From Epinephelus fuscoguttatus (taxonomy: Eukaryota > Chordata > Actinopteri > Perciformes > Serranidae): a DNA stretch of 64,000 nt. Positions 3,561 through 63,000 of the stretch are shown here, piece by piece (position 1 is the stretch's first letter; each line of letters opens with the position of its first letter). Under the pieces are notes generated by a model. That model searched no databases and had not been told where the DNA came from. It saw only the letters and a program-made list of their open reading frames with translations. The position numbers and the translations under genes are program-made. The stretch spans positions 30,031,098-30,095,097 of the forward strand of contig NC_064770.1 of the NCBI RefSeq assembly GCF_011397635.1, given 5' to 3'.

Positions 3561-6500
3561 TCTCATCCAACGTCGGCACATTACTTCGCTTTTTTTTGCA
3601 GATGATATTGTAATTTTTACTGATAAAACTGTTCTTGACGTGACAGCAGACAACAAGTGAGTGTGTGTGTGTGTGTGTGTGTGTGGGCAGGGGCAAAGAC
3701 GTATAGACAAATTCTAAAATATGTATGTAAAGTAAGTTATCACAGCCCAAACTGGAAAAACAAGGAAAGAACAATAAAGCTGACGCCAAGTCCTGACAGG
3801 AAACACATTTTGAAATCTCACGTGCAAACAGCTCAGCTCACATGAACATACTGAGAGTTTGGACGTGCAGACTTAGTTGTATGAATGAAATGAATTCTGT
3901 CACAACATACAGAGACATTTGTTCTTTAAATGCCGTATTAAATGACTGTAATTCTACTCCAAGTTGCATTGTGTTGACTTTTCTTGAGGACTGCTGGTCT
4001 GACCAGAAATGTAAGTTTTAAAAAACAATAATTGCTTTAATAGCTCGACCAACCTGTTTGTTGTTTGTTTAAAGTGATCGGTGTTTATTCTAATGTTTGT
4101 ACCCAAAAAAGAAAATCATAGAAAGTGGTTTTTAACACTGAGTGGATTATCCTGGTGAAATAAAGTCAGTTATGGACTTATTGCATGGTCCTAATACACA
4201 CACTCACACACACAATCAATCAATCCCATGATCTCTCTGCTTTGTCTTGTATCGCCCTCTGGTGGTCATTATTTACCAACAAGGCAGCAGTTCCACGAAC
4301 GGTGGTTGATATGGGGAAGCAAGTCTCAAATAATGCTGCAAATGACATTATAAGGGAACCAAAAAAAACTGTAAATACCTCAACTTCTGTCTCCTGTGGC
4401 CCTACAATACATGACAAAAAAGAACACAGGCTTTACAGTAACTACAAGTACTAGAAGTAATTAGCTGTACTGACATGCACTTGGATGCATTTCTCTACTG
4501 TGTTTTTGTCATATAAGTTGATGTGGGACACTGCAGATACTTGAAGGTACATACTTAAAACAGTATTTTAGTACACTAAGTCTATGAAAACTACTTTCCA
4601 CCTACTGTGAAACATGATTGCTGGTTAGATGGATCAGTTAACTTGATATGACATTTAGATGTTCTCTTCACATGTACTGTTAACATTTCCCGTCTGTCAA
4701 AAGGCCACAGGCCCCAGAGAGGGAGAGAAAAGGGTATGCTTCCTCTTTCAAAAAACGTTCAGAGACAAGGTGCATTGTTTCCCCAGAATCAGACGAGGAA
4801 GTGATCTGTGATTATCAGATCTCTGGTTCCTCTTCGTGTCCCGTTTAAACTCAGTGCTGTCTTCAGTTGGACCACAGTGGCACACGGGCGGACGCAGAGA
4901 GGCAGATCGTCCCTTTTAAAGCTAAGGTGCGGACTTAACTTTTCATTCAGGCTGTAGTGAACACAGGCATAGATAGGCTTCATGACATGTAAATGATTCA
5001 AATAGCTCACATGTAACTGAAGCCAGCTGGTTAGATTTCTGTGGTTTGAGATGTCTGGGTTTGTCTCTGCTCCTGGACTTGGTCAAAGCTCCTCAGTGTT
5101 GTAAAGATACCTGAGAAGTTTTGAACAAGTACAGGATCTCTGACTGTCACTACTTCAAGTGTTGTAATCTATGTTGTTCTGTAGTGCTGCTTGTCAAACT
5201 TAAAGTCAGGCCTTCTCATACACCTGTACAGTATTTTCATTTATCTGTTACCTTTTACCGTGTTCAGCTATGTTTATTCAATATACATAAAGATTGCTCA
5301 AAGAATAAGATTAGCAAACTGAAATCTGATTCAACATGAAGAGGGCAAGATCCAGAAAGGACAGGACTCCAAGCTGACTGTCTCTATGGTGACTGAAGAA
5401 TCCAAAAACAGAGAAACCTTTTCACCGATTGAAGTCATAGGGAACTGTTACTAACAAAAGCAAAACTATATCAAAAACAAATCAGTTTACAAACTCTCAC
5501 ACAACTCGTGCAGAATAATCCAAGTCGCAGTCGTATGCTCACTACTTCCCAAACAAGCATTCACACTAAAACCTTACAATTTATAACACTGGTTCAGGGT
5601 GTCTACAGGTCTCAGACACTTGTATTTGATTTTTAACTAAATATTTAGACTTTTTTTCTTATTGAAGCAGTGAATAAGAATAAAGGTATGCAATATAGTA
5701 GTAGCCTATATATGTGGACACATGCAGAGGCAGGCAAGTTAGGTTAATCTACATTTTGCCAACAGGTAGTTGCAAGTATTAAGTTGGTTCAGAGGTATGT
5801 TTAGAGACTATTTAATGACTTTTAGGGCCTGATAATGTATGAAATTTAATTTATCCCAACCCAAGTGTACCAAAAACAAAGAACTTTAATACAGTATTTA
5901 ATTCATTTCTATTAAGAAAACTAAATGAATTGCCTACTTTTAAAGCTTAGATTATTCTTAGAGAAATTAAAAAAAAAAAAAAAAAAAAACTCTCAAGAAA
6001 AGGGCACCATGAAGACCTGAACACAAGCTATATCGACAGAGCCTTCACTCTCTGCTTAACCACCTTGTCCTGCATTAGAGAAGTACACAGTTAAAACAAC
6101 CACAGAGCTAACAGAACAATGGCCACATGACAGGGAGAAGAAAACACTTACTTTGTCATAAGGAATCCTATTAAATATCTATTAAAAAAAAAAAAAAAAA
6201 AAAAAAAACCTGCACAAAAAGCTCCACAAATATAAGATAAACTCACCTGTGATGCAACATTCACAAATAATCTGCACAAATTTAATCCATATCTCATTTT
6301 ACACAAACATCCTGCTGGGTTAATTGTTCAGATTATTAGTTGTTCTGCACCGTTGTTGGGGATGCTTCTTTTGGCTATGTGTATTTTTCATTACTTCATT
6401 TATTATTGATTGATAAATGTGTTCATTCTTCTTATTTCTCCTTGAATGAGTGCTGTATAATTGTACAGTTTTATTTCCTTGCTGTTTGTCTCTGCCACTG

Positions 6501-25284: not shown

Positions 25285-27058
25285 GTGTCAGTGATTAGAC
25301 AAGATAATAGCAGTTAGCCTGTATGTCATTCAACTAAAGACCTGTATGCATAATCTTTGCCTTCAGTTTTTGACAGATGGGGCACCACCTGAAAAGCTAC
25401 ATTACTGCAACTGTCCACTAGATGTCATTACTCATTTGCTCCTGACCTGCAAAGTGGCGTTATGTCTCTGGATGTAGCATAATGAGATCATGGGATCTTT
25501 GTTTTTCTGAGCAGAGTGGGCTAAAGGTATAACATTATTTATATGACCCAGTCTGATTTTGCAAGTGTGGGTGCACAGACTGTAGAAACAATTACAAAGC
25601 ATTACAGAATGTGTCTGACTTCCTCTGTGGAGACATAAAGGAGCAGAGTGTGTTGATCAATCATTGACCAAGTCTCTTTGTCTGATCAATAACAACCTCA
25701 TCTGACCAGGACCAGCCACATTTAAAATCATAAACCTGTACAGTGAGAAGGAGGGGCAATACATGGACTCTGATTTTATTGCTTTTAACTGGGAGTGCCT
25801 GGGGTGGACTTGAGTAATATTCACCGAAGTTAAAATATTTACAGTGTGATCGGCTGGTATAATAAGAGGATTAAACTCTGTTGTTGGGCAAGGTGGCACA
25901 CGTTATTCTTCCGAGACATTTGAGACACAGCAATCCTGGAAATATGAGATGTGACAAGCACATGTTGTTCCCCAACATGATTGTTAATGGCATACTCTGC
26001 AGAACTCTGTCAATATTTAACATGGGTACCTACTGTACATTGATCCTCCCCATTCAGGCAGTAAATCACCTTAATCTGGCTTTTCTTGCAATATTTGATG
26101 TCTTCCCCCTGCTCTTCTGTTTGCTCTCCTTTGACAGCTAACCCACAGCTTCCTGAGTAATTGACCCCATTTGCCCGACCCAACCCTGAAACTTGATTCA
26201 AAACACTGTCTAGTTTTCAGCTGCCACAACACAAGATAAGCTCTGCCACAACAAAGGTGGAAAATGTATGCATTTGGAAAAAGTGCACTGAGAGCTGCGT
26301 GGCTCTCTTGAGGGTGTGTGCATATAATGAAAAGTGTGAAGTAATGAAAAAATGGACGCTCCTATAATCTGAATCTTGAATCTCATAGAACAAACGAAAT
26401 GAAATACGCCTGCCCTAATTCTGATGGACGTCACACTGTTTAATTTTGTGTTTCTACATTTACATCAGCAGGGCTTTGTGAGCAATTCAATATTACAGGT
26501 TAATCTCCTGGATAGTCTGGAATGGTGACGACAACCACAGAGGTAAAAGGTCAGGGTACGTGCTCCTTTATCTTATTCCAGTGTCATAATCTTACATCGC
26601 ATCCATGCTCACCCAGTGCATGTGTTATATATCTGATGCTCTTATTAGGGATTTGTTTTCTATCTCATCATGATTTCATCAAACACCACCTACAAAGGTG
26701 AGGTGGGTAGAGGGAGAAAGATGGAGGGAGAGACAGAGAGAGGGAGGGAAGGGAGAGTGTAAAAAGAGAGTACAGAGGCTCCTCCTCGTTCGCTGCGTGT
26801 GTTTCTTGTGTTTTTTCTGCCTGTTCTCCACTCACACTCTCGCTCAGCAGAGATTCAGAGGTGGAGAGCAAAGATTCTCACTGGGAAAAAAAGGGGGGGA
26901 AGGGAAAACAGATTTTCTTCCTCTCACATCAAAAAAAGAGACACAACCAAGAAATAAAGGTAGTGTTTATTTTTGAGGGTTGGGGGGGGGGGGGTACTGT
27001 CATCATCAGCCCTGCCTTCCTTCTGCACGTGCTCAGCTCTGCACAACTGTGTTCCCAG
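25285..27058. other. Cytoglobin upstream region
   Basis: No gene was recognised. A GA-rich stretch (26699-26760) and a long 5' leader precede the cytoglobin start. A CACGTG core, usable as an E-box or hypoxia element, lies at about 27026-27031, just upstream of the start codon. Confidence 0.4.
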
Positions 27059-33231
<6,173 letters not shown>

Positions 33232-34494: not shown

Positions 34495-36604
34495 ATGTGT
34501 ACCACTTTGGCGGTCCTCACCACCATCGCTCTGATCCTGCGGCAGAGATTCTCCAACAAAATCAAACCGTGAGTACTGATCCAAAACAATTACTGGAATA
34601 AAATGTTGACATTTTACATTTTATATTACATTTGTATGTTTCATATGTATCATATATAGTTCTGTAGTGACATAGATCAGGTTAAATGTATATGAGCTGA
34701 GTCTCTCATCAGGAGGAGCAGAGGATGGTAGGTAGACGGACTGACACAAAACAGGTCGGGACATTCCCAGTTGTCTTTGAAGAGACACAAGCAGATATTT
34801 TTTAAACAGATTGCAAGACATATCCAGCTGTGTTTGTAGCTACAAAAGTGGGTATTTGTAAATGGACGTTCAGGACATTTCCAGCAACAAAAGCGATTAT
34901 TTTTTAAATGAGTTTGGGACATTTCTAGCCATGTTTGTAGTGACAAAAAACAGGTATTTTTTAATTACAGTTTGTGACTTTTCCAGACGTGTTCCAGTGT
35001 CAAAAGCAGGTGTTATTTCACAAGAGGTTGGAACATTTCCAGCAGTGTTTGTAGCAACAAAAGCGGGTGTTTTTACATAAGAGGTTGGAACATTTCCAGC
35101 AGTGTTTGTAGCGACAAAAGCGGGTGTTTTTACATAAGAGGTTGGAACATTTCCAGCAGTGTTTGTAGCGACAAAAGCAGGTGTTTTTACATAAGAGGTT
35201 GGAACATTTCCAGCAGTGTTTCTGGCGACAAAAGCAAGTGTTTTTCCAATTAGAGGTTGGAACATTTCCAGCAGTGTTTGAAGCAACAAAAGCGGGTGTT
35301 TTTCCATAAGAGGGTATTTTTTCACGAGACTCTGGGACATTTTCCGCAGTGACAAAAGTGGATGTTTTTAACCACAATTCAGGACATTTCCAGCCATGTT
35401 TGTAGCAATATAAACGGCTATTTTTTAATGAGAGTTTGGGACATTTTCAGCCATTTTTGCACAAACATCCTGAGTTTGGGATATTTCTAATAGTGTTTAT
35501 AGTAACAAAAGAAGGCAATTTTTAACACGTGTTTGAGACATTTACAGCTGTGTTTTTAGGGACCAAGCCAGGTATTATTTCACAAGAGGCTGGAACCTTT
35601 TACAGCCATGTTTTTCATGATCAAACCAATATTTTCAGTCAAATCATTATGTTTTCCTAACCCTACCCGAATGGTTGTTGTGCCTAAACCTAACCACACA
35701 TTACAGTGTTGTCACATACCATTTCAAATTTAAAACACATCCCCGAAATATGAAAAGTACTTGCAGAAATGTACAATGCCAACATTTATTCCGACGACTG
35801 GGTTGACTTATCATGAACCGTGACTTTTAATAGGCACTAAAGAACAGTGGTTGTTGAAAATCTGTGTGTTTTCAGTTATGAAACAGAAATAAGAGACTAG
35901 TTTTTGTCAAGATTTGGATTAAGACTGGAGTGCCTGACAAATAAGATAAATTCAAGAGCTTGAGGCCTGTGAGAAAAGTATTTTATACTTCATAAAATAA
36001 ATACATGTAAAAATGTCCACCAATACAGCAGATATGAACATACACATACACAGAAAGTGCAAGGCCATTTCATATGTGGGGGAGTGAGGGAGATAGGGTT
36101 AGACTTATCTGCATCATTGATTTGAAATCACTCCAGTGATTATTTTAGGGTACGCCTTGAGCAACAGTGTCGGATTAAGTGGCTCGATACATAACAGTGT
36201 ATTCCAGGTTTTCTTTTTTAATGGAGAGATGAATGGAGGGGAAAGCATCAGAGCTCTTGAGCTCGTGGCTGCTAATTGACTCAAAGTGCAATCTTCTCAG
36301 CCCCCCCCCCTGGCCTTGCTCAGCCACTCACACAGCAATGGCAAACAATACCAGGAGGCTACGGCACCACGGAGCATGGCAACAGCTAGCTTACACAATT
36401 ATGAGCTAATAAACACTGAAACCTCCTTTTTAAATGAGTTCCTTAACCAAACTGTTTCCAGTTAAGTGTGTTCAAGAAGACACTGTGATGATACACATGG
36501 AGCATTTAATACTGAATTCTGCTAATGTCCCGTATCACAGGCAGACAGAGGAGACAGACGTGCCATACACAAAGAGCAATGGAGCAGCAGAAACCCAAAA
36601 ATGA
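34495..36604 (+). CDS. prcd: PRCD photoreceptor disc component
   Basis: A tiny membrane protein of photoreceptor outer-segment discs, mutated in progressive rod-cone degeneration of dogs and humans. Coding exons 34495-34568 and 36541-36604 join in frame to about 45 residues. The start MCTTLAVLTTIALILRQRF closely follows human MCTTLFLLSTLAMLWRRRF: Cys2 is the known palmitoylation site, residues 3-15 form the hydrophobic anchor, and a basic RQRF segment follows. Exon 2 gives PQTEETDVPYTKSNG and ends at TGA. It is somewhat shorter than the 54-residue human protein. The upstream frame in exon 1 is open, but the conserved Met at 34495 was chosen. It lies just downstream of cytoglobin, as in human. 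Confidence 0.9.
34740..35640. repeat. 57-bp minisatellite in prcd intron 1
   Basis: A tandem array with a core of five or six close units at 35024, 35081, 35138, 35195, 35253 and 35310 (period 57, once 58). The unit begins GAGGTTGGAACATTTCCAGC and includes GCGACAAAAGCGGGTG. More diverged units spread to both sides. Because 57 is 19 codons, open frames survive on both strands, including a 152-residue minus-strand frame with the repeated peptide GNVPTSYVKTPAFVATNTA. I regard these as by-products, not genes. Confidence 0.9.
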
Positions 36605-42982: not shown

Positions 42983-45900
42983 ATGGTGAGTCAGGCTGCT
43001 GCAAGTAGCAACATTTCCATCATTTATTAGTGTTTACTGGATTCTTGGAAAAGTTAAACGCATGTTTTCTGTCACTTTGTATGTAAACGCAACTGATTTG
43101 CTTGAATTACATTATCCTACCTGTATCACAACATATTTATTGTCATTTACAGGCTGCAAAGCTGAAGGGCAAACCATCCCAAAGTAAGTTCAAGTGTTAT
43201 TTGAATGCCGTAGTGTACCCCATAGTTATGCTGACTGATACACACTCACTGGCCACTTTATTAGGTACACCTTACTCGTACCAGGTTGGACCCCTTTTGC
43301 CTTCAGAGCTGCCTTAATTCTTGGTGTCACAGATTCAACAAGGTGCTGGAAACATGATGAAAACCTTCCGTTCCACCACATCCCAAAGGAGCTCTATTGG
43401 AGATCTGGTGACTGTGGAGGCCATTGGAGTACAATGAACTCACTGTCATGTTCAAGAAACCAGTTTGAGATGATGTGAGCTTTGTGACATGGTGCGTTGT
43501 CCTGCTGGAAGTAGCCATCAGAAGATGGGTACACTGTGGTCATAACGGGATGGACACGGTCAGCAACAATACTCAGGTAGGCTGTGGTGTTTAAACCATG
43601 CTCACCACACCACCAGCCTGAACTGTTGACACAAGGCTGCATGGATCCATGCTTTCATGTTGTTTACACCAAATTCTGACCCTACCATCTGAATGTGGCA
43701 GCAGAAATCCAGACTCATCAGACCAGGCAACGTTTTTCCAATCTTCTATTGTCCAGTTTTGGTGAGCCTGTGTGAACTGTAGCCTCAGTTTCCTGTTGTT
43801 AGCTGACAGGAGTGGCACCTGGTGTGGTCTTCTGCTGCTGTAGCCCATCTGCTTCAAGGTTGGACAAGGTGTTGTTGCTTCAGAGATGGTCTTCTGCAGA
43901 CCTTGGTTGGAACCAGTGGTTATTTGAGTTCCTGTTGCCTTTCTATCATCTTGAACCAGTCTGGCCATTCTCCTCTGACCTCTGGCATCAACAAGGTATT
44001 TTCACCCAGAGAACTGCTGCTCACTGATATTTTTCTCTTTTTGGGACCATCCTCTGTAAACCCTAGAGATGGTTGTGTGTGAAAATCCCAGTAGATCAGC
44101 AGTTTCTGAAATACTCAGACCAGCCCATCTGGCACCAACAACCATGCCACGTTCAAAGTAACTTAAATCACCTTTCCTCTCCATTCTGATGCTCAGTTTG
44201 AACTTCAGCAGGTCGTCTTGACCATGTCTACATGCCTAAATGCATTGAGTTGCTGCCATGTGATTGGCTGATGAGATGTTTGAATTACGAGCAGTTGAAC
44301 AGGTGTACCTAATAAAGTGGCCGGTGACTAATTTTACAACCAAGAAATTTAGAGAAGTAATGCCACAAAATACTAGTCATATAGAATACCAGAAAAATAG
44401 CACACAACTTACACATATAAGAGCTGGTGGCAGTATAATTGAACGCAAAGGTTTATTTCAAAACAAATAAAAATTAGAACTTGAGTCAAATAAAACAAAG
44501 TCCACGTTAATAAGGGAAAACAATATTCAGTTAAACTGATAATGTCCAGAATAAACTAAAGAGAAAGAAAATGCTTACCAGCACTTCTGCCCAGTGTGAC
44601 ACTGAAGAAAGAATGAGTGAAATGGTGTTCAGAAATCAGGGTGAGCAGGTGAACGCAGTCAGGTTAATGAGTGAACAAGGATTGAACGGAACCAATCAGT
44701 GCTGAGGAAAGGAAGTGAGGTAAGTGAGGAAAAGTAGTGTCAAGATAAAGAAAATGTGAACCTTTAGTACGGCAAGCATGCTTAGTATTTTATATTCCAT
44801 TCTGCCAGTATCCCCTAAATCCTATAATAAGCTGAATCATCTCAAGCTTATGTGAATGTATGTCCTCTCTGTTTTCCCAAGGTTTATTTGGAGATGACGA
44901 TTTGCTCGACAGCTTATTTGATGATGAAAGTAAGTGAGCAGTTTTTAACCAAATAGTATAATTATACATTATTATTGTAATGTCACTGTGAGAGATTTGT
45001 GTTAAAATACTTCCTCTCATCATTTTGCTCACCAGAATTCCCAGTAAGAGGGAAAGCAACTCGCAGTGGACCACTGAATCGGTAAGTCGGAGGATTTGGA
45101 AAGTTACATACCACCACTTATTGTATAAATCATAACTCACTTTGTGTAACTTTTGTTTCTTCTGCAGCACTTCTGCCACTGATAACATCTTCAGTATGCT
45201 AGCACAGGAGGTAAAGAGGGATGGTGGGGACACTGAGGTATGTAGACAGAGATGTGAAGAGATACATGTATTTGTTCAGAGTATTTTAAGCTGCTATTTA
45301 AGTTACTATTTTCTGTCCAAGGACTCTGATGTCTCAGCGGCAGATCCCAACGACATACTGAAGAACTTGAAGGTAGCTCATTATCAATTTAGAGAATGCA
45401 GAGACAATGTTCAGCTTTGTAGTTGTCCTCTCACAGTGCCTGTTGTTTTTCTGTATCCCTGTACAGGACATGGATGATATGGACGCTGACCTCTTTGCAT
45501 CAAAGAAAAAGCCCAGTTCAGCTCCTGCACAAACAGAGCCGAAGAAAGACTCTTCCACATTAGAAAGTAAAGTAAAACCAGAGGGAGCAGGTAATTCAGC
45601 GCAGAGCATTTCTTGCATAAATTATTTTTCTCATTATTAGCTTCACGTTATTACTGGCTTTGAAGTTTGCATTAAGAGTAGCAATCAGAGAGAGCTTGTG
45701 TCTCCCCTTGTTCACTCAGATGAACCCACCACAGGAGGGAGGAAACCCAATTCTGCACCTTCATCTACAACGCAGAACTACAGGAAGTTAATCTTCTCTG
45801 GTAAGTGAGCCTCCCTGTCCAAATCCATCTCTGACACTGAGCTTTATATAACTCAGCAGCTGTTTACTAATAGCTTTGCTTTGTTTTTCTTGAACTGCTA

Positions 45901-48900: not shown

Positions 48901-51426
48901 GACCAAGACTTCAACAGAGTCTCCAAAGGCTCCTGCCTCTCCTTCATTAGAGAGAAGACCCTCCCTGACTGGCAGTCATGCCACATCTGCTGCAAAAATG
49001 GCAGCTGACACCCCAGCGACGACTGATAATATCACCAAACAAACCAAACCAGAGGTCTCTAAGAGCCAGAAGAAAGAAGAGGAGGAAGATGATTGGTTAG
49101 CAGGAGTACTGAGCAGGAAGAAGGTGCCATCAGTGTCAAAGTCTGAGGCAAAAACATCCAAGCAGGAAGACGCTTTGGGCCTGGGAGAGGAAGTGGATCT
49201 GGAGTCGACTGTTAGGTACACAACAAAGGAAATACAGTGACACAATGACAGACGAAGCGTGTTCCTCAGCACTGAATGATAACCTGCTCTTGTTTTTTAG
49301 TAAACAAGTCACTTCACAAGCTCCCAGGGGCAGAGAGGACACTCTTACATCTGTCAGAGAAGCTAAGTAAGATTTTTTTTTTATCTAAATCCATTAAACC
49401 CGTGATCTGTGAGTGAAAATTTGTTTGCTATTTTTGTCATTCTGCTTTTGTTTTGTGCAGTAGTACTTATCTTGGACAGCCCAGCGCCAGTGCTCTCTCC
49501 ACTCCTATCAGAGAGGCAAGGACCGAGCAAGGTATTTATCCAAGTATACTACTCTTCAGTGACTCTGTATATTAAAATAGTGACTTTCTTGGCAGCTTTG
49601 CACATTAGCAGTAGAAGCCTTCTTTTATCCCATTAATGAATCATTCATTCTCATTGATTCTGAGAAATTAAACACATCACACAGCAGTTATGAGCCCCAC
49701 ATCTGGTACCACAGGGCCTGTACACATGCTGCGTTTTTTTCACCCTCAAATCCATTGTTTTCAATGTAGACGCACAGAGCATGTGCTCAAAGGTGAGAAT
49801 GGCACGCAAGCATCCCCAAACGCCTCTTTTCAGGGCGCGTCAGCAACACCCTGAGATGAAGTACAACTTTTGGAACGCAGCTAAGGGTACAGCATGTCAT
49901 GTGACGTGGAACAGCCAATCACAATTGGAAGATATCTTCCTTTTCTTCTCTAAATATCAGTCTATTAAACCTATGGAGAAGAAGTTGATCACAAGAATTT
50001 TACATCTGTCCTACGAACAACAGTTTAGGCCAATTACATATTAAGAAACAACACTTGGAAAAAATCGGCTCCTAAATTGGAATATCTATGATACAGTGCT
50101 GGTTAAGGTTGCCTTGCAAATTTGGACGCAACCTGCCTCTCTGCCCTTGAAACCTTGCACAGGGTACATGTAAGAGTAGCACCCAGCATCTGACCTTGCG
50201 TTTCCCAGACAGTTAAAGACACAGCATGTGTCCCGGCCCTCATTTTACCTCATGTCACATCCAACTCATAACATTCTGCTCCCCCTCTCAAACAGATACC
50301 AATCCCACTTGTCCCTCCACTCCACCACAGTCCCCTTCTTTAATCACAAAGCATACACCCACCACCCAACCTAACCTCCCCTCCGACTTAACATCCCCCT
50401 CAGGGACTGCACTCCATGCTAAAGTAGACCTCGGACAAACTCTAAATTCGTCTCATCCTTCAGATTGCCCTCCTCAAGTTACTGCTCCTTTACCGGCCTC
50501 TGCTGCTAGCGTTAGCCTCGCCCAACCCCATCCTCAGTCCCAACCCCAACACCTATCGTCCAACAAGGGATCCAGGGTGCCAAGTGGGCCCGTTCAGGCT
50601 TCGGATGAAACCCTGCAACAGCAGCCGCTGCCCAACCCCATCTCTGCTATACCTTCTGGCTCAGTGTGGCGTATGTAACTTTGGGAAAATCTGATGTAGT
50701 TTCAGATGCAGTATTCACTTTGATATCTAAGGCGAGCAGGTAAATATGATGATGGTTGTTTTCTTTCCAGCTGTTCCACAGCAAAACCAGTTGCAAAATG
50801 CATCAGCTGCCATCCAACAACAGGTATTCATGCTTTTCTGTAATATATTTTACAGAATTTGGGCGATTGTAAACTAATTTTTTGAAATCCTTTCCATATC
50901 TTCTGTGAAGGTGACACTTTCAGCAGACAGTCTGCAGCAGCTGCTTCTACAACAGCAAGTAAGATCATAAAAGTCTCTGCTTGTAGATTTATTAAAAATG
51001 TAAGAACCCATTTACCACCTGGTTTGTTCTTGACTTGTTTACTCTTCTCCTAAAGATGATGCAGTCTCAGTTGCTGGGTCTTGGGGGTGTTGTGGATGCA
51101 GGGCTCCTGCAGAGACTCAAAGAGAGAGAGCAGCCGCCTGGAGATTATCAAGCGTTACAGGCTCGCATCATCCAGCTGGAGGGACAGGTACATTAACGCT
51201 GCTGTCATGATGAGAGTAATAACCTTCCCTGCTGTCCCAAATCCTCTTCCTATGTGACACCCATGTACATGCACAGCCTGAACTGTCTGTGTGTTACTGT
51301 CCAGGTGAAGACCCTGCAGCTGGAGCGAGACCAAAGCCAAATGTTGCTAGAGTGTGTCCAGCAGAGGCATAAACAGGATATGGAACTAATGGAGAACGCA
51401 CACAAGTAGTTTATTCGTCCACCACA

Positions 51427-51483
<57 letters not shown>

Positions 51484-54400
51484 GTAGTGCCTGTGTACAT
51501 GTTTAACATACATTATGCATAATTCCCTGCACTTCAAGCAGCTTATGTGTGTCCGTGTGCTGAACTCATACTGTAAGGATTTCTGTGCACGTCCAGGACT
51601 AGAGTGAAGCTTCTCGAGGAATCGGCAGCCCAGAGGGAGACACAAACACGGCAGGAGTGTGAAGACCTAATGGATCGCCTGGCTGCAGTAACACGATCGG
51701 CTGAGCAGGAACGCTCGGAGCTGCAGGCACAGTACCAGCGCAAACTGGCCCAGGCCCAGCAAGAGAGAGACTGCGAGGTGGAAAGACTCAAGGACCTGCA
51801 GAGGTATTGAAACTCAAAGCTTTGGAAATGCCTGTCCTGACTTGGGACGTGAATGGAAAGACCTGAGACTTATTTGTGACTTGCAAAACAATAACTTGGT
51901 CCCACCTCTGACAAGTAATGTATTAGCGAGGTGGTGGGGAGGGGGTCTGGGCCTCCAGCCCCAAATGTTCTCTCTAAATCTACGCTATTCTCTACAGAAA
52001 TCTAAGCTTGTTAAGTAAATGTTCTTTTGTTGGCCAAATATTTTATTCAGAGTGCTGAAGACCATATGTACTTTGCACTGTTACCAAGATTTGTAACTTA
52101 AAAATAGTAACATCAGTCATTTTTTGTCAGGAGTAAATGTAAGGAGTGAAAATTAGTCATCCTTAACATTTGCTGTGTCATGGTTTTAGAACGATGAAGA
52201 CACTTTGATTCAAAATCAGATGAAGGCTCAAACAGGATGATTTTTTTTTCTTGGCAACTCTCATGTTTTTCCTGAATGATGTGCAGATTTTTAGCCATTC
52301 TATTATGTCAAATATCTTGAGAAATAGTGCATATCGTTGTCGTGAAACTGGGAAAATTATATCCCTGATAACTTCTTAAGTCCCAGACTGAGCATATTGA
52401 TTCTTTTAATAATAAACTTTAAAGTTTACCACATATTTGTTGTATTTGTACCACTCTGCTGTCAAGGAAATCTATCTTGGAGATGAAGAAAGACCACGAG
52501 GATCATGTCCAGAGACTAAAGAAATTAAAGGAGGAGGAGATTGATGCAGTTACGAGCGCAACATCTCAGACCAGGTTAGATTTGATCAAAGTACACAGTT
52601 TCATTTGCAATTATACTTGTAATTATAATCCTGTGATGACTAGTAGTATGTTCGACCTGTGTTTTTGTGTGTAATACTAGTTTCAGTGCTGATATTTCTA
52701 TTATATACAGTATGTAGAAAGAGCAAACTACAACTGGAGAATGTCTGGAATTATTGTTTCTTATTATATTTTATATCAAAACAGATTTCCTACATTTCAG
52801 AGATTTTTGTATTATCTACTAGCAGTACTGTGTTTTTTTTTTGTTGTTTTTTTTTTGTCCAGATCTCTTAAAGTGGTGATTGAGCAGATGGAGCAGTTCT
52901 CCTCTCGGCTGGGTGATCTGTCTTCTCGGGTGGAGAGCACACACGAACACACGGCTCATGGCCTGGAGGAGGGGGCACGGCACAGGGACGAGCAGCTTCG
53001 AAGTACTTATACACACAAACACACATTTACATGCATGCGCACGCTTTGCACAAATAGGTCAAGATACACATTGCCTAATAGCCTACTTTAGTTGGTATCA
53101 AATTGCAAGTGGGTTAAGGTCATTCTCCTAATTCCCGTTTCAGTGGTGCAGGACTGTCTGGCCCAGCAGCAGAAGGCGATGGCGGAGGAGAGAGTGTACC
53201 TCAAGGAAGTCATTTCCAGGATGGACACTCAGCTCAGTGAGCAGCAGAGACAGCTTGAGAAGGTCAGGGTAAAATCTGACTTTAAAAACAGACTATTTTT
53301 AGGATACCTGCATTTTCTTTGACATAGCAGGAGGCAAAAACACCTGCAGTGAAGACTGATGCTTTTCCCTTCAAAGACTGGAGATACCTTTTTTGTATGC
53401 CTCAGGAGCGCTGGAGGATGACAGCAGCACAGGCCAAGGCAGGGACTCCAAAGGACAAATAAATATACCTTTCTCTCTGTGTCTGTTGCAGGAACAAGGC
53501 GACCTAAAACTTCACAATGCAGAGCTGAAACAAAAGGAGATGGCTTTGGCACAAGAGAAAGAAACTCTGGACAGACTGAAAGAAGAAGTGAACAGAGAGA
53601 AAGAGAAAATAAGCAGCACAGCGTTGAGACTCAAGACACAAGCCCAGGAGGTGGAGGCCTTTAGCAAGGTAGGATCACACCACGCAGACCCCTACATGTA
53701 GAGCTGTAATAAGTCATGTCTGAGTTTTGACCACACTGTGCTGTTTGCAGCTTGCTGCGGAGAAGTTCGAGGAAGGCGAACGAGCGCTGCAGGAGGCGAA
53801 ACGTGTGGAGGCTGAGCACGAGGCAAGGCTCAGAAATATCCATACCCAGGCAGAGCGGCTGAGGCAGCAAGAGCAGCGAATCCTTCAGGTGACACCTCTC
53901 TGTACGATATTTAACAGATCGGGCTTCTATTTTACAAAAACAATAGATGAACAGCACATAAAAGGTTACTGCGTGGTAAACACTTCTCATCACAGGAGCG
54001 AATGCGGTTAAATCATCTGCAGGAGGACACAGAGAGGCTGAGACAAGTCGCTCCAGTTACGTCTTTAACACAAATGATTCCACCTGTTTTACCAGGTGAG
54101 ATCAACGCTGGGTATTGGCCATCGTTCAGCAAAAAGTACTTGTCCAATATAAAGTGTATAACATGATTTTGTTATATTTATCTTTAGACGCAGGTTCAGT
54201 GTTGCAAAACCCGGAGCTGCAATCAACCCTGAATGTTCCTCCTCCAACGACAACTTCATGTGCCAACTCTAAATCCATGGCTCTTCAAGCTAGTCTGGCT
54301 CTGTGGAGGTACACTTCAGAAAAGGTAACCAGTGGAGATACAATTTAAACTAAAGGTATAGGGAAGCGTCTTAGCAGACAGGGTCATAGGGGATGATTAA

Positions 54401-55616
54401 GAACGGTTACTTTAGTATAAGTCTATACATTGTTTTAAGAAAAATCATGCAAAGTCTTCCTTTTAAGTTACATTATAACTACTAGCAACTTGAGATTTTT
54501 ACTTGGGTTTCTCAGAGTGTTCCAAAAAGTAGTCACATTATCATAATGATTGGTGCATGACTTAGCTTTAAAGGTGACAAACCTTCAAAAAGCTGTTTGA
54601 TTAAAGATTGCAAGTATTGGAGATAGAAATGTACATAACTATATTGGTATACAAGCTGTGTGTGAGACACATAAAGCCTGAAAAATACAAGTCAAGAAGC
54701 TGCAGCAGATGGTGGTGGGAAAAAACAGTCAAGTCAGACAGTTTCCAGCAGCCTTCAAAGAATAAACACAAAGTCACAGAGATATTTCTATCCTGTTGCA
54801 TCCATCTGTAGGCTGTGATTTGCAAACCATGTTAGAACGTGATCAACCATACAGTGTTTAATAGATGAAACCTTAATTGCATGATATAGCCTACAATCCA
54901 GCATTAAGTATGAGATTTACACAAAATTAGAAAAAAAAACAAAAAAACAAACAAAACATGGCATCTGAGCTCAAAACTAAGAGCCAATCAGGTTTTTGTT
55001 TAGGTGTCAGCTAGGTGTTTTCCATCATACCCTGGGTCTTGCACATATTTAACCAGCATGCACTGCGTAGTGATCATCTTGAACAAACTTAATGTCATCA
55101 CACAATATAAGCACAGGACCATCATTATTACAGTCGTCCAAAAGCTCTTTCAACAATTATCTTTTACGACATGAAGAAATCTGAGGTCAACTCATTAATG
55201 TCCTAGTGGTACTTAACATTTTGCTGAGTCCTTAACACTTCAAAAAATAAAATGAAACTGCAATTTGATCAGCGTTAACTGTACCAGAGATGATTATTAA
55301 ACATTAAGGACTTACAATTCAAAAGAACACAAGTAGGTTGTCACTGTAGGTTTTTAATGTCAATATGGAATTGAAACAAGCTCATTACAACATGTGAGTC
55401 ATCCACAATAAACACATTTACTAAGCTACAGTGACAGCTTCCAGCAGTCGATGGCAAAAAGTCTAGAAACAGTTGTCTTCGAATGTTTCAAAGTTTGCGT
55501 TTCTGTTCCTAATTACTTTCTTCCTCCCCACAGGACCAGGAATTCCTCGCAGAGGAGCAGATCTTCTTGGAGAATTTGAAGAAGAAATCTTACAGATCCA
55601 CCTTCAAAACAGATTG
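42983..55616 (+). CDS. fbf1: Fas-binding factor 1 (centriole distal appendage protein)
   Basis: FBF1 sits on centriole distal appendages/transition fibres and is needed for ciliary gating. Coding exons: 42983-42985, 43153-43183, 44882-44929, 45036-45081, 45168-45237, 45322-45372, 45467-45590, 45720-45800, 45912-45959 (optional), 47739-47870, 47967-48102, 48346-48500, 48585-48678, 48760-49215, 49301-49366, 49461-49531, 50296-50670, 50771-50823, 50911-50958, 51056-51187, 51305-51405, 51597-51803, 52467-52574, 52863-53002, 53144-53262, 53492-53668, 53751-53888, 53996-54095, 54188-54324, 55533-55616. Phases join throughout to 1176 residues (1160 without the optional exon); human is about 1133. 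The N half is acidic and low-complexity (FGDDDLLDSLFDDE, DDDDKDDLMDALGF, DWLGLKTNDDLTFLEGD); the C half is coiled coil (EQMEQFSSRLGDLSSRVEST, LEEGARHRDEQLR). It ends QIFLENLKKKSYRSTFKTD. Confidence 0.92.
43241..44328 (-). mobile_element. Tc1-like DNA transposon, degenerate, in fbf1 intron 2
   Basis: It is flanked by TA (43239-43240 and 44329-44330). Inverted ends read CACTGGCCACTTTATTAGG (left) and CCTAATAAAGTGGCCGGTG (right). The minus strand encodes pieces of a Tc1-type transposase: an N-terminal DNA-binding part (GMVVGARWAGLSISETADLL, then GFSHTTISRVYRGW), a middle part (WTIEDWKNVAWSDESGFLL) with the first catalytic Asp, and a C-terminal part (YFQQDNAPCHKAH and QWPPQSPD) with the second Asp. 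The pieces lie in different frames and the copy is shorter than a full Tc1, so it is inactive. Its sense is opposite to fbf1. Confidence 0.9.
46605..46985 (+). mobile_element. tRNA-derived SINE-like repeat in fbf1 intron
   Basis: It starts with an A-box-like TGGTAGTGCAGTGTTTAGCA and a B-box-like GGTTCAAACC or GGTTCGAACC, then the very common fish body text CCACAGTCCAAAGACATGC, GGTTAATTGGTGACT, GTCAGCTGGGATAGGCTCCA and GATAAGCAGTTATGGA. The B-box area is locally duplicated (46665-46700). It lies in the intron after the optional fbf1 exon. Confidence 0.65.
47526..47570. mobile_element. Orphan Tc1-type terminal repeat
   Basis: ACAGGTGTACCTAATAAACT matches the right end of the Tc1 element at 43241-44328 at nearly every base, with no partner nearby. 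It is a relic end of an older or deleted copy in the same gene. Confidence 0.5.
49690..50110. repeat. Probable DNA-transposon remnant in fbf1 intron
   Basis: Between fbf1 exons at 49531 and 50296 lies sequence with GTAGACGCACAGAGCATGTG, CATGTGACGTGGAACAGCC and a short frame MEKKLITRILHLSYEQQF that resembles the start of the MADF-like protein of Harbinger-type elements in fish. The identification is tentative. Confidence 0.3.
51425..51480. repeat. CA dinucleotide microsatellite
   Basis: A nearly pure CA run of about 55 bases lies in the fbf1 intron just after the exon ending at 51405. Confidence 0.95.
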
Positions 55617-55930
55617 ACCAACACATGCTGGGTGCTCCCAGTAAGATTTAGGTTACTTTTCATGTGTAGAATGTTTAAAATGTGCCATTGTGCTTGAATT
55701 TTTATACAGTTCATAATTTTATTAAACATGTTTTAGATTAAACATGGCTGAATTTTCATACTGACAAATCTACTGCATTTAATATTCACTTCTGGATCTA
55801 TCCCAAGCTGGTGTTGCATCCACTTCTGTCGATTTCACCTGCAAGTTAGGGAAAGAGAGATTAACACTTTATCACTCGTGATATACTACTTTAGTTAGCC
55901 AAAGATGTACCGTTTCTGTATCTGTAGTCA

Positions 55931-55994
55931 AGCCTCAGGTTACCATGACTCCACACTTTAGTTCAGACAGGGATAACATGTTTCATCACTGGCT
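55931..55994 (-). ncRNA. snord1: SNORD1-type box C/D snoRNA (intron 5 copy)
   Basis: Minus-strand reading: stem AGCC, box C GTGATGA, guide GTTATCCCTGT directly before D' CTGA, then guide GTCATGGTAAC before D CTGA, closed by GGCT. The D' guide is fully complementary to ACAGGGATAAC of 28S rRNA, the SNORD1 target (G4362 in human numbering, from memory). By the fifth-base rule it selects the second of the three G in ACAGGG. It is 64 nt long. Confidence 0.85.
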
Positions 55995-56173
55995 AGACTT
56001 TATCATAAGTCTTAAGGGCATTTACCTGTTCAACATTTCCCAGCACCTGTGTGTTGCCTTAGTCTTTTCTTTGCAGATTGTCAAGACCTGGAGGGAGAAA
56101 TTCTGTATTTAGATCATGTATACCAGTAAGATTCAAACAACTATCGTCAGCCAAACGTATACTGTTTCTGCAG

Positions 56174-56242
56174 TCAAGCCTCAGGTTACCATGACTCCAC
56201 AATTAGTTCAGACAGGGATAACTTGTATCATCACTGGCTTGA
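56174..56242 (-). ncRNA. snord1: SNORD1-type box C/D snoRNA (intron 4 copy)
   Basis: Minus-strand reading: stem AAGCC, box C GTGATGA, the same GTTATCCCTGT guide before D' CTGA, the same GTCATGGTAAC before D CTGA, closed by GGCTT. The terminal stem is at least seven pairs, better than in the other copy. It lies 245-248 bases from its twin, showing tandem duplication. Confidence 0.88.
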
Positions 56243-56431
56243 TTTTATCATCGAGAGCTAAGTCGTACAGCATTTACCTGTTCAGCTCTCATCAGCTCCC
56301 ATGTGTTGTGGTAGTCTTGCTTTGAAGATCAAAACCTGTAGAAAAAAATTACATCTTTATCTTATCAAGTGTTCAGAGTGGGTGCACCACAGACAAAAGG
56401 TTCAACAGCATTTCTCAGAACAGCTAATACC

Positions 56432-56488
56432 ATCGTCAGTTATCGCATCAGACGGCACTTCCTATGCAGCAGTTTTCATCACTGAATC
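56432..56488 (-). ncRNA. Diverged box C/D snoRNA candidate (intron 3)
   Basis: Minus-strand reading: CAGTGATGAAA (box C) at the same offset from its exon as in the two SNORD1 copies (248 bases away), then GTGCCGT before CTGA, and GATAA before a second CTGA. The guide segment differs completely from SNORD1, and no clear terminal stem is seen. It is either a new guide RNA or a decayed third copy. Confidence 0.45.
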
Positions 56489-57325
56489 TGTGGTAAAGTT
56501 GATCATAAGCAGTAAAGGGGTACAAACCTTTTCACCAGGCCTCCTCGCGTTAGCAGGCAGTGTGAAGTGGGACACGTGTACCTGTAATGAGACAGTTCAT
56601 TAGTGATAGTTGAACAGCAACATGTGATTCACACACATACCATCTGCTTCATGTCAGATGCCACTGATTTCCTCACATATTTTTAGACAGGGTGCAAAAT
56701 CATGTTCACTGCATGAATTCAGCATTAAAAATTATACCACTATGTCAATCTTACCTTTCATTTCGCTGAAAGGCTGCTTCTCTTGGCATGAAGATGAGCC
56801 TCATCCGCCCAAGCTGCACCTTAAGTCAAAATATATCGAATAAAATCAGACAGTAGATCTCAAATCGGACATTATGTTATGGGCTGCTGACCAAAGAAGG
56901 CCATGCTCCTCACCGCCCCTATAGTAGGCTAAATAACACTATGCAACGTTAAATTAATATTTTAGTTTATTTCCATGTTACTCTACACGCGAGTAGATTT
57001 AATGCACGTTATCTGTTGCTCACAATCACCTACTTATAACCCTTTTGTAACTTTAGCCCATCATGCTCTACTTGCACGTGTTAGCTTAACTTAAGGCTAG
57101 CTAACAGCTAGCAGTACGTTAGCACATTTCATATGAAACCGCCTCCAGACTTGTAAATAGTTAAAGTCTCAATAACTACTTTTAAAATATTACCTGTTCA
57201 CGGCGGCTCATCTGCAGTTAAGTCCATATGTAGACGTAAATTTAAAAAGACATGTGACAACGGCATGTTGAAGAGCAGGAGACTTAGCTTGCTACCACCC
57301 CGCCAGTGAAAGAGCTTAAGAACGA

Positions 57326-57420
57326 AAGTCTCGCGTGATGATGCTTTTATATGTTGTAAACGTCATATCCCACGTGATTACTGACCCGGTGTGGTAAAAG
57401 TTTAACTTGTATTTTTCGCG
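57326..57420 (-). promoter_or_regulatory. Promoter of the snoRNA host gene
   Basis: A TATAAAAG element (minus strand, 57351-57344) lies about 25-35 bases before pyrimidine-rich start candidates near 57328-57314. A CACGTG core lies at 57371-57376. Confidence 0.5.
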
Positions 57421-59300: not shown

Positions 59301-59579
59301 AGAAACTAGTTTGTCAAGCCAAGTTGAAGTGTTGTACATGATCTGGTTTCCTGTGTTTCCTCAGGTGCGCTCGGAGACAGACAGGACAGCAGAGCTGCGC
59401 GCTCCTCCGGCTCCATCACTGCCATTCCCCTTTCAGTCACTAGGGAGAGACTCCGAACTAGGAAAGCTGCTGTTATCACACACTCAAAGGGTCCCACAGC
59501 AGGCTGATAGGGAGCACAGTCTGCACCGCACCGCCATCCGCACACCGGCCTCCGGGACGCGTCGCTCTCTCCGCCCGGG
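59264..59579 (+). promoter_or_regulatory. sphk1: sphk1 promoter and 5' leader
   Basis: A TATA-like TTTATAAATA at about 59268 precedes the gene. A pyrimidine tract with CAG ending at 59364 could instead be an acceptor for a leader exon. The leader up to 59579 is GC-rich. The start mode is undecided. Confidence 0.35.
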
Positions 59580-60006
59580 ATGGAGAAAGACGCCTCTGAG
59601 CCGGACCCATCCCGCCAGCGGAACGGGGTCGTGGGCGTGCTGTACGGGGAGTTCACCGACACGCTCAACGACAGGGTCCGGTACTCGGTGAGCTTGACGG
59701 AGAGCGCCCTGACCATCCAGAGGATCTCCTCATCACCCGGCCGGACTAAGGTGGTTTTTAACTTGACAGACTGTGTCGGCTGCCGGGCGCACAGAGGGCC
59801 GGACGGCGCGGACGTCGGCGCCTACTTTACAGCCTATTTCTACCCGTTCAAGAGGCGCTGGATGAGCGCCGGAGTGGCCCGGCAGAGAGTGGAGCAGTGC
59901 TTTCGGGTCGCGCTGGTCCAGGACCCGCTCGCCAACCTCCAGGAGGCTGAGAGGTGGGCTCGTGCCATCAGAGATGCCTCGGTGCTGCAGGCGCCCCGGA
60001 GAGACG
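59580..60006 (+). CDS. sphk1: Sphingosine kinase, first coding exon (sphk1 likely, partial)
   Basis: Sphingosine kinases phosphorylate sphingosine to the signalling lipid sphingosine-1-phosphate. Only the first coding exon is here: 142 codons plus one base, then a GTGAGC donor. The kinase domain lies beyond the window. The peptide GVVGVLYGEFTDTLNDRVRY, then SVSLTESALTIQRI, ends in QEAERWARAIRDASV. It follows the N-terminal domain of human SPHK2 (LLHGEFGSYPARGPRFALTL, then LTSQALHIQRL and EAQRWATAL), which human SPHK1 lacks in its main form. Placement next to PRPSAP1, CYGB and PRCD, as in human 17q25, favours sphk1. Sequence alone would allow sphk2. Confidence 0.75.
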
Positions 60007-63000
60007 GTGAGCACTGAGGGGAACATGGGTCACAGCAGGTTTGGAGCTTGAAAAATTAACTTAATATTACAAAAACACAGGCCAGGAGAAGGCTAGCAAA
60101 TACTATTTTTATATGAAGATGAGAAAACCATCAAGTGTAAGCTCAGTCACATGGTGCATGCCAGGATATTCTCATGGCCATCACTGTGATTTCACTCTTT
60201 AATGTGACAAAAGTGAGCATTTAAGGGAGTAAATGAAATCAGGCTACCTGACTCAGAAAGCCCCACATGAAACCTCAAGCACAGCACACATTTCTATTTC
60301 CAGAAACAGGTTTGTCAGAGAGGATGCACACATTCCCTCTGCTCTCACTAACCTGCTCTACCTGCCCTGAAAGGTGATCCACCTGCCAGCAGCAATTACA
60401 GCTGCCTCATTCATTCATACAGCCCGTCAGAGGCATGATGGTTCTGGATGTGGAGCCTGTTGTGAACTTACACACACACACATATGCACAGTCCCACACT
60501 CACACTCACAAAACTGATCACTTAAGTAGTTAGATTTTCTACTGATCCTCTGTCTGCAGAGAGTGTAGCCGCTGCTCAGGCTTCATTATTCCCGCTCAGT
60601 AAATTCCCACTGAGAGTTTATTGTTGACGGGTGGAAGAATCACATCAAAACAAAGCCTGTTTTTCATCCCCAGCTTTTGCAGGCAGCTACGTCTAATTAG
60701 GTCTCGTCATGTCTCGCTCTGTTTAAAATGCAGCCTGTCCTCAGGTTCCTTTGTCTTCCAGTCTCATTAGCTTCCCTTTGCTCCATCCTCGTACACAATG
60801 AGACAGTCATTAACATGAATACTATATGAGAAGTGTTTATGCAGCTAATTACCCCCATCACTCATTTGGGAGGAAGTGGTGATACTTGCTGATGATGAGA
60901 CAAAGCTGTTTCAGTCCCAAAATGGTCCATCATCTGGGAACGGGTGCAGAATCCGGCATGTCAGGTCAGCTAATATCCTCTTCCTCATATAGAAATATTT
61001 AACAGTTTAAAATATAAAGCAGGCATGTGCTCCCGGGCAGTTCAAAGAGGAAGCGGATATTTGATTTGACAGTGACTAATTTGGAATGTTGGTTGCCAAA
61101 GATGGAGGCAAGTGTTGGTATAGTGGGATAAGGAATGAGGTGTGCCCTCCTGGTCACAGCCTCCAGGTGTACACAGCAAACACAGAGAGGTCGATGAATA
61201 AAGAGAGAGACTGTGCTTCTGTGTGATGAAGAACATCACCTCCCTCTGGTCTGCAGCCAGCATGGAGTTTGGGTTTCAGCCCTGGATGCCAGGCAGGCAG
61301 GCAGATGGTAACCTGAGAGGTAACTGCCCCTCCTGTCACCATCTTCTCACTGGACTCATCAAAGAGCTCCAGCTTGGGAGGTTTTCAAATCACACATACT
61401 AATGAACCAGCTCAGACATCTAACGGCTCTCTAACATGGTCTCTCATCCCAGATTTTTTTCTTTTTTTGCCTCTTTTGAACGCAGCGTCTCAGCAATGAT
61501 GTGATCATATCATTAATTTATGAGCTTGTTTTAGCATTCCGGATCCAGGCCAACCAATAATACAGTATTTAACAGAATATGATATGTGATTTAAATGAGT
61601 AATGTTGTGGTAATAGATGCAGCAGAATTGCTGCTTTGCTGCCTCGTCGGAGAGGGTGTGTGAAGGTCAGCGTGAGTCGCTAATCCCTTATAGTGTATTT
61701 AAGTTAATTGCGTGTCATCTCATCTGGTATTGCAGATGGAAAGGTTGGATTAAAAGTGCAATTGCAGCACAAGATTGGTATTTAGTCAGAGTGACGCACT
61801 TTCACTGAAGCAGATAAACACTTCATTGAACATGTGAAGGTGCAGTTTCCACTGAGGTTGTAACTCTACTCATTGACTCTAGTTTAGTTTGGCTGACGGC
61901 ACCAATACTCTCAGAGGGTTCTTACTCTCGCTGCAGGTTCATTGGAATGAATGAGCCGTAAATAATGAAGTGCACACACTATGATACAGTCCTGCACACG
62001 CTAATGGTCTGCTACAGTATTTCCCCTGCTGAGGATTCACAGTGAGATTGCATGCAAAGGAGTGAGATGATGGTTACTTGCTTTGACTTTTTCCAAAACT
62101 ACTAGCTGCTGCCTTCGTTGCCAATGGCTGTATCCTTTATATGCTGTTCAAACAGCTGGTAGGAGCTCAGTTACAGCTTTAAAATTTAGACATTGTGGGT
62201 TTTACATTCTTCTGATTACATTCGTGCTACAGAGTTATGATGGTAGTCTTCATTGTTCCCAAACTTCTGTGTCTGACCCCTGTGTACCCTTAAAGGAGCA
62301 GTGTGTAGGATTTTGTAGCATTTAACGGTGAAGATTGCAGACTGCAGTCAGCTGAAACTCTGGGTTAGGATTCCCTTAGGGTTAACTGTTCAGGAGGTTT
62401 TCACCGGGAGCTGAATTATCTGCAGAGGTCTCTTCCTCTCCAAGACAAACAGACCAGGTGATGGACGCCTTGTTTCCACATAGCTCTGTGTGAGTCAACT
62501 GGAAGTCCATGTTGCTATGAGAACCTCCATGATCTCTGATGTGTTCGTGAAACTCCACCTTCCATTTTTTTACGGTCCAGTTTGTGGCAGATTTCAGACA
62601 GACCCATATACAATGTGCCACAGGGAACTAGTGTATAAATGAACTAACTAAGAGACTGATGAATGTTATACAGCTCGACTAAAACATTTGATGGCATGCT
62701 AAGGTTGTGAACACTGGTAGCATGCTAGCTGTGTAACATGCATAGTAGATCATACGTCTTTTAACAAAATATCTTATAAAACTGGCTACACACCTGACAG
62801 GCCAACATCAATACATATTCGTCACCATGCATTATTGGTCCCATTTTTGTCTCTGTATGGCTCCATGTGAATATTCTAAAAGACTGAACACTGAAAACAC
62901 TCAAAAATACCTTTTCTGCCATTTCTGTGGTGGTGTTTTTATCCATCCTGAAAGAAATGCATTTCCTTGCGTTGAATATTAGTGGCATACACCATACACT

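Follow-up and report, generated by a model that had tools for sequence, protein, structure and literature searches.

Inverted conservation, in which intronic snoRNAs are kept while the exons around them drift, is a known trait of snoRNA host genes, and one of these hosts, SNHG16, is known mostly from papers on human cancer. The human gene hosts SNORD1A, SNORD1B and SNORD1C, and SNORD49 is not listed with it in the available extracts of the papers concerned (PMC6868825, PMC7154078). SNORD49A and SNORD49B appear with SNORD65 in the locus schematic of another human host, SNHG29, in the extract of PMC9622897. In chicken, according to the accessible part of the relevant report, snR38 (SNORD1) occupies an intron of its own host, and U49 is found together with HBII-135 (SNORD65) in the host CR391615 (PMC2653536). 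A survey of 60 human lncRNAs, as excerpted, did not count SNHG16 as one of the five with conservation reaching as far as chicken (PMC6868825), and no description of SNHG16 from fish, or of SNORD49 inside it, appears in the excerpts of the literature matches listed.

The window analysed here is a 64 kb stretch (G000:C19:30031098-30095097) taken from a genome of 1.047 Gb and 26 contigs. It was searched against 4227 Rfam families at their gathering scores, and one match to SNORD49 and two to snoR38/SNORD1 were obtained on the same strand, spanning no more than 560 nt (Table 1). The first-pass annotation had predicted intronic box C/D snoRNAs of the SNORD1 type at this place and had suggested an Rfam search for them; both loci score above the gathering threshold, in introns 4 and 5, and the inventory has to be extended by the SNORD49 of intron 3, which had been missed. 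The six minus-strand exons with GT-AG junctions in that annotation agree with a predicted gene (about 57328 to 55700) whose five introns fit the splice consensus, the donors matching it at 7, 8, 7, 8 and 8 of 9 bases for introns 1 to 5 and the acceptors ending in CAG in four introns and in AAG in the first. Since each Rfam match falls inside a GT-AG intron, the gene model appears to be right.

Table 1. Features of the predicted host gene in window coordinates; introns run from the predicted donor to the last acceptor base on the minus strand.
Feature	Position	Strand	Basis
TATA-like stretch ATATAAAAG	57342..57351	-	read from sequence, without a test against chance
Exon 1, pyrimidine-rich possible starts 57328-57312 (start uncertain), holds 22-aa ORF	57194..57328	-	predicted
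Intron 1, 374 nt, no credited snoRNA	56820..57193	-	predicted
Exon 2	56755..56819	-	predicted
Intron 2, 173 nt, no Rfam snoRNA, one uncredited imperfect box C/D-like candidate (56725-56654)	56582..56754	-	
Exon 3	56528..56581	-	predicted
SNORD49 in intron 3 (56527-56336, 192 nt)	56413..56486	-	Rfam RF00277, 62.6 bits, E 1.1e-11 (64 kb window)
Exon 4	56278..56335	-	predicted
SNORD1, first copy, in intron 4 (56277-56088, 190 nt)	56174..56242	-	Rfam RF00213, 61.0 bits, E 6.8e-8 (64 kb window)
Exon 5, tandem duplicate of exon 4	56026..56087	-	predicted
SNORD1, second copy, in intron 5 (56025-55839, 187 nt)	55928..55997	-	Rfam RF00213, 56.7 bits, E 6.7e-7 (64 kb window)
Exon 6 with AATAAA at 55723-55718, end approximate	55700..55838	-	predicted

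A donor with at least 7 of 9 consensus bases and a pyrimidine-rich YAG acceptor were correctly placed around 3 of 3 snoRNAs and around 277 of 20000 random positions, a control that favours the gene because its distance limits (donor 25-45 nt upstream and acceptor 74-92 nt downstream of the snoRNA) were chosen after the gene had been seen. For the TATA box, pyrimidine-rich start and poly(A) signal that had been proposed, a TATA-like stretch, possible starts and an AATAAA can be located, and the start site and poly(A) site, like the splicing, are predictions. The exons were held to have no coding value, and this agrees with the 508-nt spliced model, in which the longest ATG ORF has 47 aa and the first, of 22 aa, terminates inside exon 1.

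Exon 4 with intron 4 and exon 5 with intron 5 form a tandem duplication (local score 142, best shuffled score 25). When gap columns were counted as differences, the duplicates were identical at 65 of 70 columns in the snoRNA (93%), at 43 of 62 in the exon (69%) and at 78 of 132 in the rest of the intron (59%), with Fisher p values of 6e-4 for the snoRNA against the exon and 1e-7 for the snoRNA against the rest of the intron. Selection has kept the snoRNAs while the exons drifted, and the locus provides an example of inverted conservation within a single gene. A second copy of exons 1-3 was sought in the genome, and only the gene itself matched.

Both SNORD1 copies have boxes C and D, a 28S guide and a strong terminal stem, matched by 1 of 500 and 0 of 500 shuffles, respectively. 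The SNORD49 copy has boxes C, D', C' and D and a D' guide to 28S, and no terminal stem was found for it, 210 of 500 shuffles being as good; some working C/D snoRNAs lack such a stem. Between box D and the 3' splice site there are 79 nt for SNORD49, 93 nt for the first SNORD1 and 96 nt for the second, and the predicted branch point lies 49, 53 and 73 nt from this box, respectively. The first two branch-point spacings are near the favoured range of 33-50 nt given in the available part of PMC10234308, where it is also stated that a terminal stem often compensates for a distance of more than 40-50 nt between snoRNA and branch point. The SNORD49 without a stem, at 49 nt, and the stemmed SNORD1 copies further away fit this pattern of compensation, with n=3.

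In introns 1 and 2, no minus-strand Rfam match was found at E values up to 5; the region gave one plus-strand match to mir-998 (E 4, below the gathering score), and the two introns showed no resemblance to the snoRNA introns above shuffled scores. A box scan proposed candidates there (e.g., 56913-56846 and 56725-56654, with 1-2 mismatches in box C), which were not credited because the scan returned equally imperfect extras inside introns 3-5. Both are on the minus strand; the one in intron 2 stops 72 nt short of the 3' splice site and may be what is left of a former snoRNA.

The guides were followed on four 28S-like loci; all of them look like fragments and not like working rDNA, and three are recognised by the Rfam LSU model. 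The SNORD1 guide upstream of box D' forms 12 pairs without mismatch with the 28S stretch ACAGGGATAAC (-19.3 kcal/mol), and the pairing is exact at 4 of 4 own-genome sites. The D' guide of SNORD49 pairs over 12 positions with one mismatch (-18.6 kcal/mol), 64 nt beyond the SNORD1 site, at L015, the best LSU-like locus (251.5 bits); at the diverged loci L016, L017 and L018 the energies were -8.5, -9.7 and -11.4 kcal/mol, so that good pairing was seen in one of the four 28S-like loci. The methylated base lies opposite the fifth nucleotide from box D', and the SNORD1 target is one that we take to be the equivalent of human 28S Gm4362. By the fifth-nucleotide rule, the SNORD49 target is predicted to be the equivalent of human Cm4426, which is listed for U49 together with Cm2409 in the extract of PMC3511168. 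For the second SNORD49 guide (human Cm2409), no consistent site was found in the four 28S-like loci, whose sequence possibly does not extend to that position. The pairing energies of the SNORD1 and SNORD49 D-box guides were scattered over sites and varied from one of the four loci to another, so that no target is claimed for these guides. Diverged 28S fragments occur on many chromosomes, with 14 sites at no more than one mismatch to a 22-nt 28S stretch (including L016, L017 and L018), and a search for the 28S stretch in viral contigs gave no match.

Family searches across the genome returned at least two SNORD1 matches, all at this locus, among 62 candidates scored, and at least three SNORD49 matches, one here and two on C12, among 60 candidates scored; these counts are lower bounds because such searches score the best candidates only. 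The locus on C12 (L004, C12:30905500-30915499, minus strand, from about 6300 to 3600) carries SNORD49, SNORD65, SNORD65, SNORD49 and SNORD65 in this order on one strand, and in snoRNA content alone it resembles a fish counterpart of SNHG29; the chicken host CR391615 combines the same two families (PMC2653536). Its sampled neighbours are calpain and HHH_9 domain ORFs and a Tc1-like transposase. Human SNHG29 shares SNORD49 with the C19 gene, whereas the Rfam search found no SNORD65 in the 64 kb window. The SNORD49 bodies of the two fish hosts match over 55 nt at 94.5% and over 58 columns at 87.9%, and beyond these two matches no alignment between the hosts was better than E 0.18. Duplication of the whole gene from the C12 host was rejected, as the similarity is confined to SNORD49, and the genome presents a clear case of one snoRNA family in two unrelated hosts. 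This is most simply explained if SNORD49 came into the SNHG16 gene on its own, or if that gene once had an old copy which amniotes have lost.

The gene neighbourhood was followed from a cytoglobin ORF (26711-27265, plus strand, E 1.2e-22) and a prcd-like match (34495-34569, plus strand, E 9.6e-7, with a human protein sequence as the query) to FBF1 stretches (E 1.7e-16) at 51197-53701 on the plus strand, where 4 of 10 tested ORFs matched PF21007, one of them above the cut-off. About 15 kb past the window end, a plus-strand catalytic exon matched sphingosine kinase 1 in the PDB (E 3.9e-71), with SPHK2 as the remaining alternative; two ORFs inside the window, 59302-59691 and 59511-60017, had no match in Pfam, and the latter looks by sight like the start of the sphingosine kinase gene. 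Of the positions first assigned to the gene, near prcd and between fbf1 and sphk1, the flank formed by FBF1 stands, and the other flank is a sphingosine kinase, either SPHK1 or SPHK2. The prcd-like match belongs to the same block, but the host gene does not adjoin it, since it lies about 21 kb away beyond fbf1, with the host in the opposite orientation.

The human 17q25 block includes CYGB, PRCD, SPHK1 and FBF1, and the fish block of cygb, prcd, fbf1 and sphingosine kinase fits it, rearranged inside, with different adjacency and orientation. Human SNHG16 and the fish gene have in common intronic SNORD1 in a spliced non-coding gene and the cytoglobin, prcd-like and sphingosine kinase neighbours; the human gene has three SNORD1 copies and, in the human gene order, adjoins PRCD, whereas the fish gene has two, adds SNORD49 and lies between fbf1 and the sphingosine kinase. 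SNHG16, as had been suspected from the outset, is the best name for it because the human gene hosts SNORD1A/B/C and because cygb, prcd and the sphingosine kinase are nearby. As no U49 is listed with snR38 in the accessible chicken data (PMC2653536), the mixed content is a difference of the fish gene. With gas5 and other TOP-type hosts it shares conserved introns, fast-changing exons and the pyrimidine start, which zebrafish snoRNA hosts also have according to the extract of PMC6954239, and differs from them in snoRNA content.

What is shown here are the matches to snoRNA families, the pattern of splice sites, the pairing of the guides, the inverted conservation and the neighbouring genes. Their best explanation, which we hold with considerable confidence, is an SNHG16 orthologue, a non-coding host gene with an additional SNORD49 and ordinary intronic snoRNA release. 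We infer from the sequence that RNA polymerase II would transcribe the host from the TATA/pyrimidine-start promoter, that splicing would free introns 3, 4 and 5, and that box C/D proteins would shield the three snoRNAs from the degradation that removes the remaining intron sequence. In 28S, SNORD1 would then direct 2'-O-methylation of the G that corresponds to human Gm4362, and SNORD49 would do so for a C lying 64 nt downstream, human Cm4426. The spliced RNA would probably be a by-product removed by nonsense-mediated decay, which is plausible because the first ORF stops in exon 1.

That the spliced RNA or a small peptide is instead the main product seems very unlikely: ORFs of 22 and 47 aa are present, and human SNHG16 RNA is said in the excerpt of PMC6868825 to sponge miRNAs and bind HuR, but no ORF exceeds 47 aa and the exon copies diverged faster than the snoRNA copies. 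Improbable, if less so, is a true snoRNA host that is no SNHG16 orthologue, with SNORD1 having moved into an unrelated non-coding fish gene of the same region. SnoRNAs do switch hosts, as SNORD49 in two unrelated hosts of this genome illustrates, and the immediate neighbours and the orientation to prcd differ from the human order; yet a chance arrival of SNORD1 in the cygb-prcd-fbf1-sphk block is unlikely, and rearrangement inside a preserved block is common, the flanks of gas5 also differing between fish and mammals in the available part of PMC5024134.

It is harder to judge what the SNORD49 copy does. We put forward tentatively, as a suggestion with somewhat less than even support, that in this fish lineage SNORD49 was copied alone from an SNHG29-type host into intron 3 of SNHG16 and is expressed there, so that one transcript yields the guides for two 28S methylations separated by 64 nt, guides that mammals and chicken have in separate genes; if so, the two 28S marks could be co-regulated. 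A possibility to be taken seriously, although we lean against it, is that the host and both SNORD1 copies work while this SNORD49 is a decaying, poorly expressed passenger, the SNHG29-type gene on C12 being the true source. The C19 copy has no terminal stem (210/500), in contrast to the two on C12 (matched by 5 and 14 of 500 shuffles), and expressed C/D snoRNAs have more stable stems according to the extract of PMC10234308. The stem does not decide the matter because a stem is likewise missing from two of the three SNORD65 copies on C12 (224 and 410 of 500 shuffles as good), and against the decay of the C19 SNORD49 stand its intact boxes and guide, its 94.5% identity over 55 nt to a C12 copy and its distance of 49 nt from the predicted branch point, which is the favoured spacing.

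Orthology to SNHG16 would carry this gene back to bony fish, and if the two SNORD1 copies are the only ones, a deletion of the gene would test the role of the 28S Gm4362 mark in fish.

Several minor features of the window were recorded. A likely last exon of fbf1 (region 55534-55750, stop at 55615-55617, by sight) points towards the snoRNA host, and a plus-strand ATTAAA at 55721-55726 overlaps the AATAAA of the host, so that the 3' ends of the two genes probably overlap. Just upstream of fbf1, minus-strand ORFs at 43591-44235 resemble by sight a Tc1/mariner transposase remnant, and right after the prcd-like exon, minus-strand ORFs at 34897-35446 contain a repeated motif, likely a minisatellite. 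Further away, a plus-strand match to the mir-7132 precursor family was found at 5076-5133 (71.5 bits, gathering score 70), and a Ras-family GTPase (PF00071, E 6.3e-41) is encoded by a single uninterrupted plus-strand ORF at 1965-2837.
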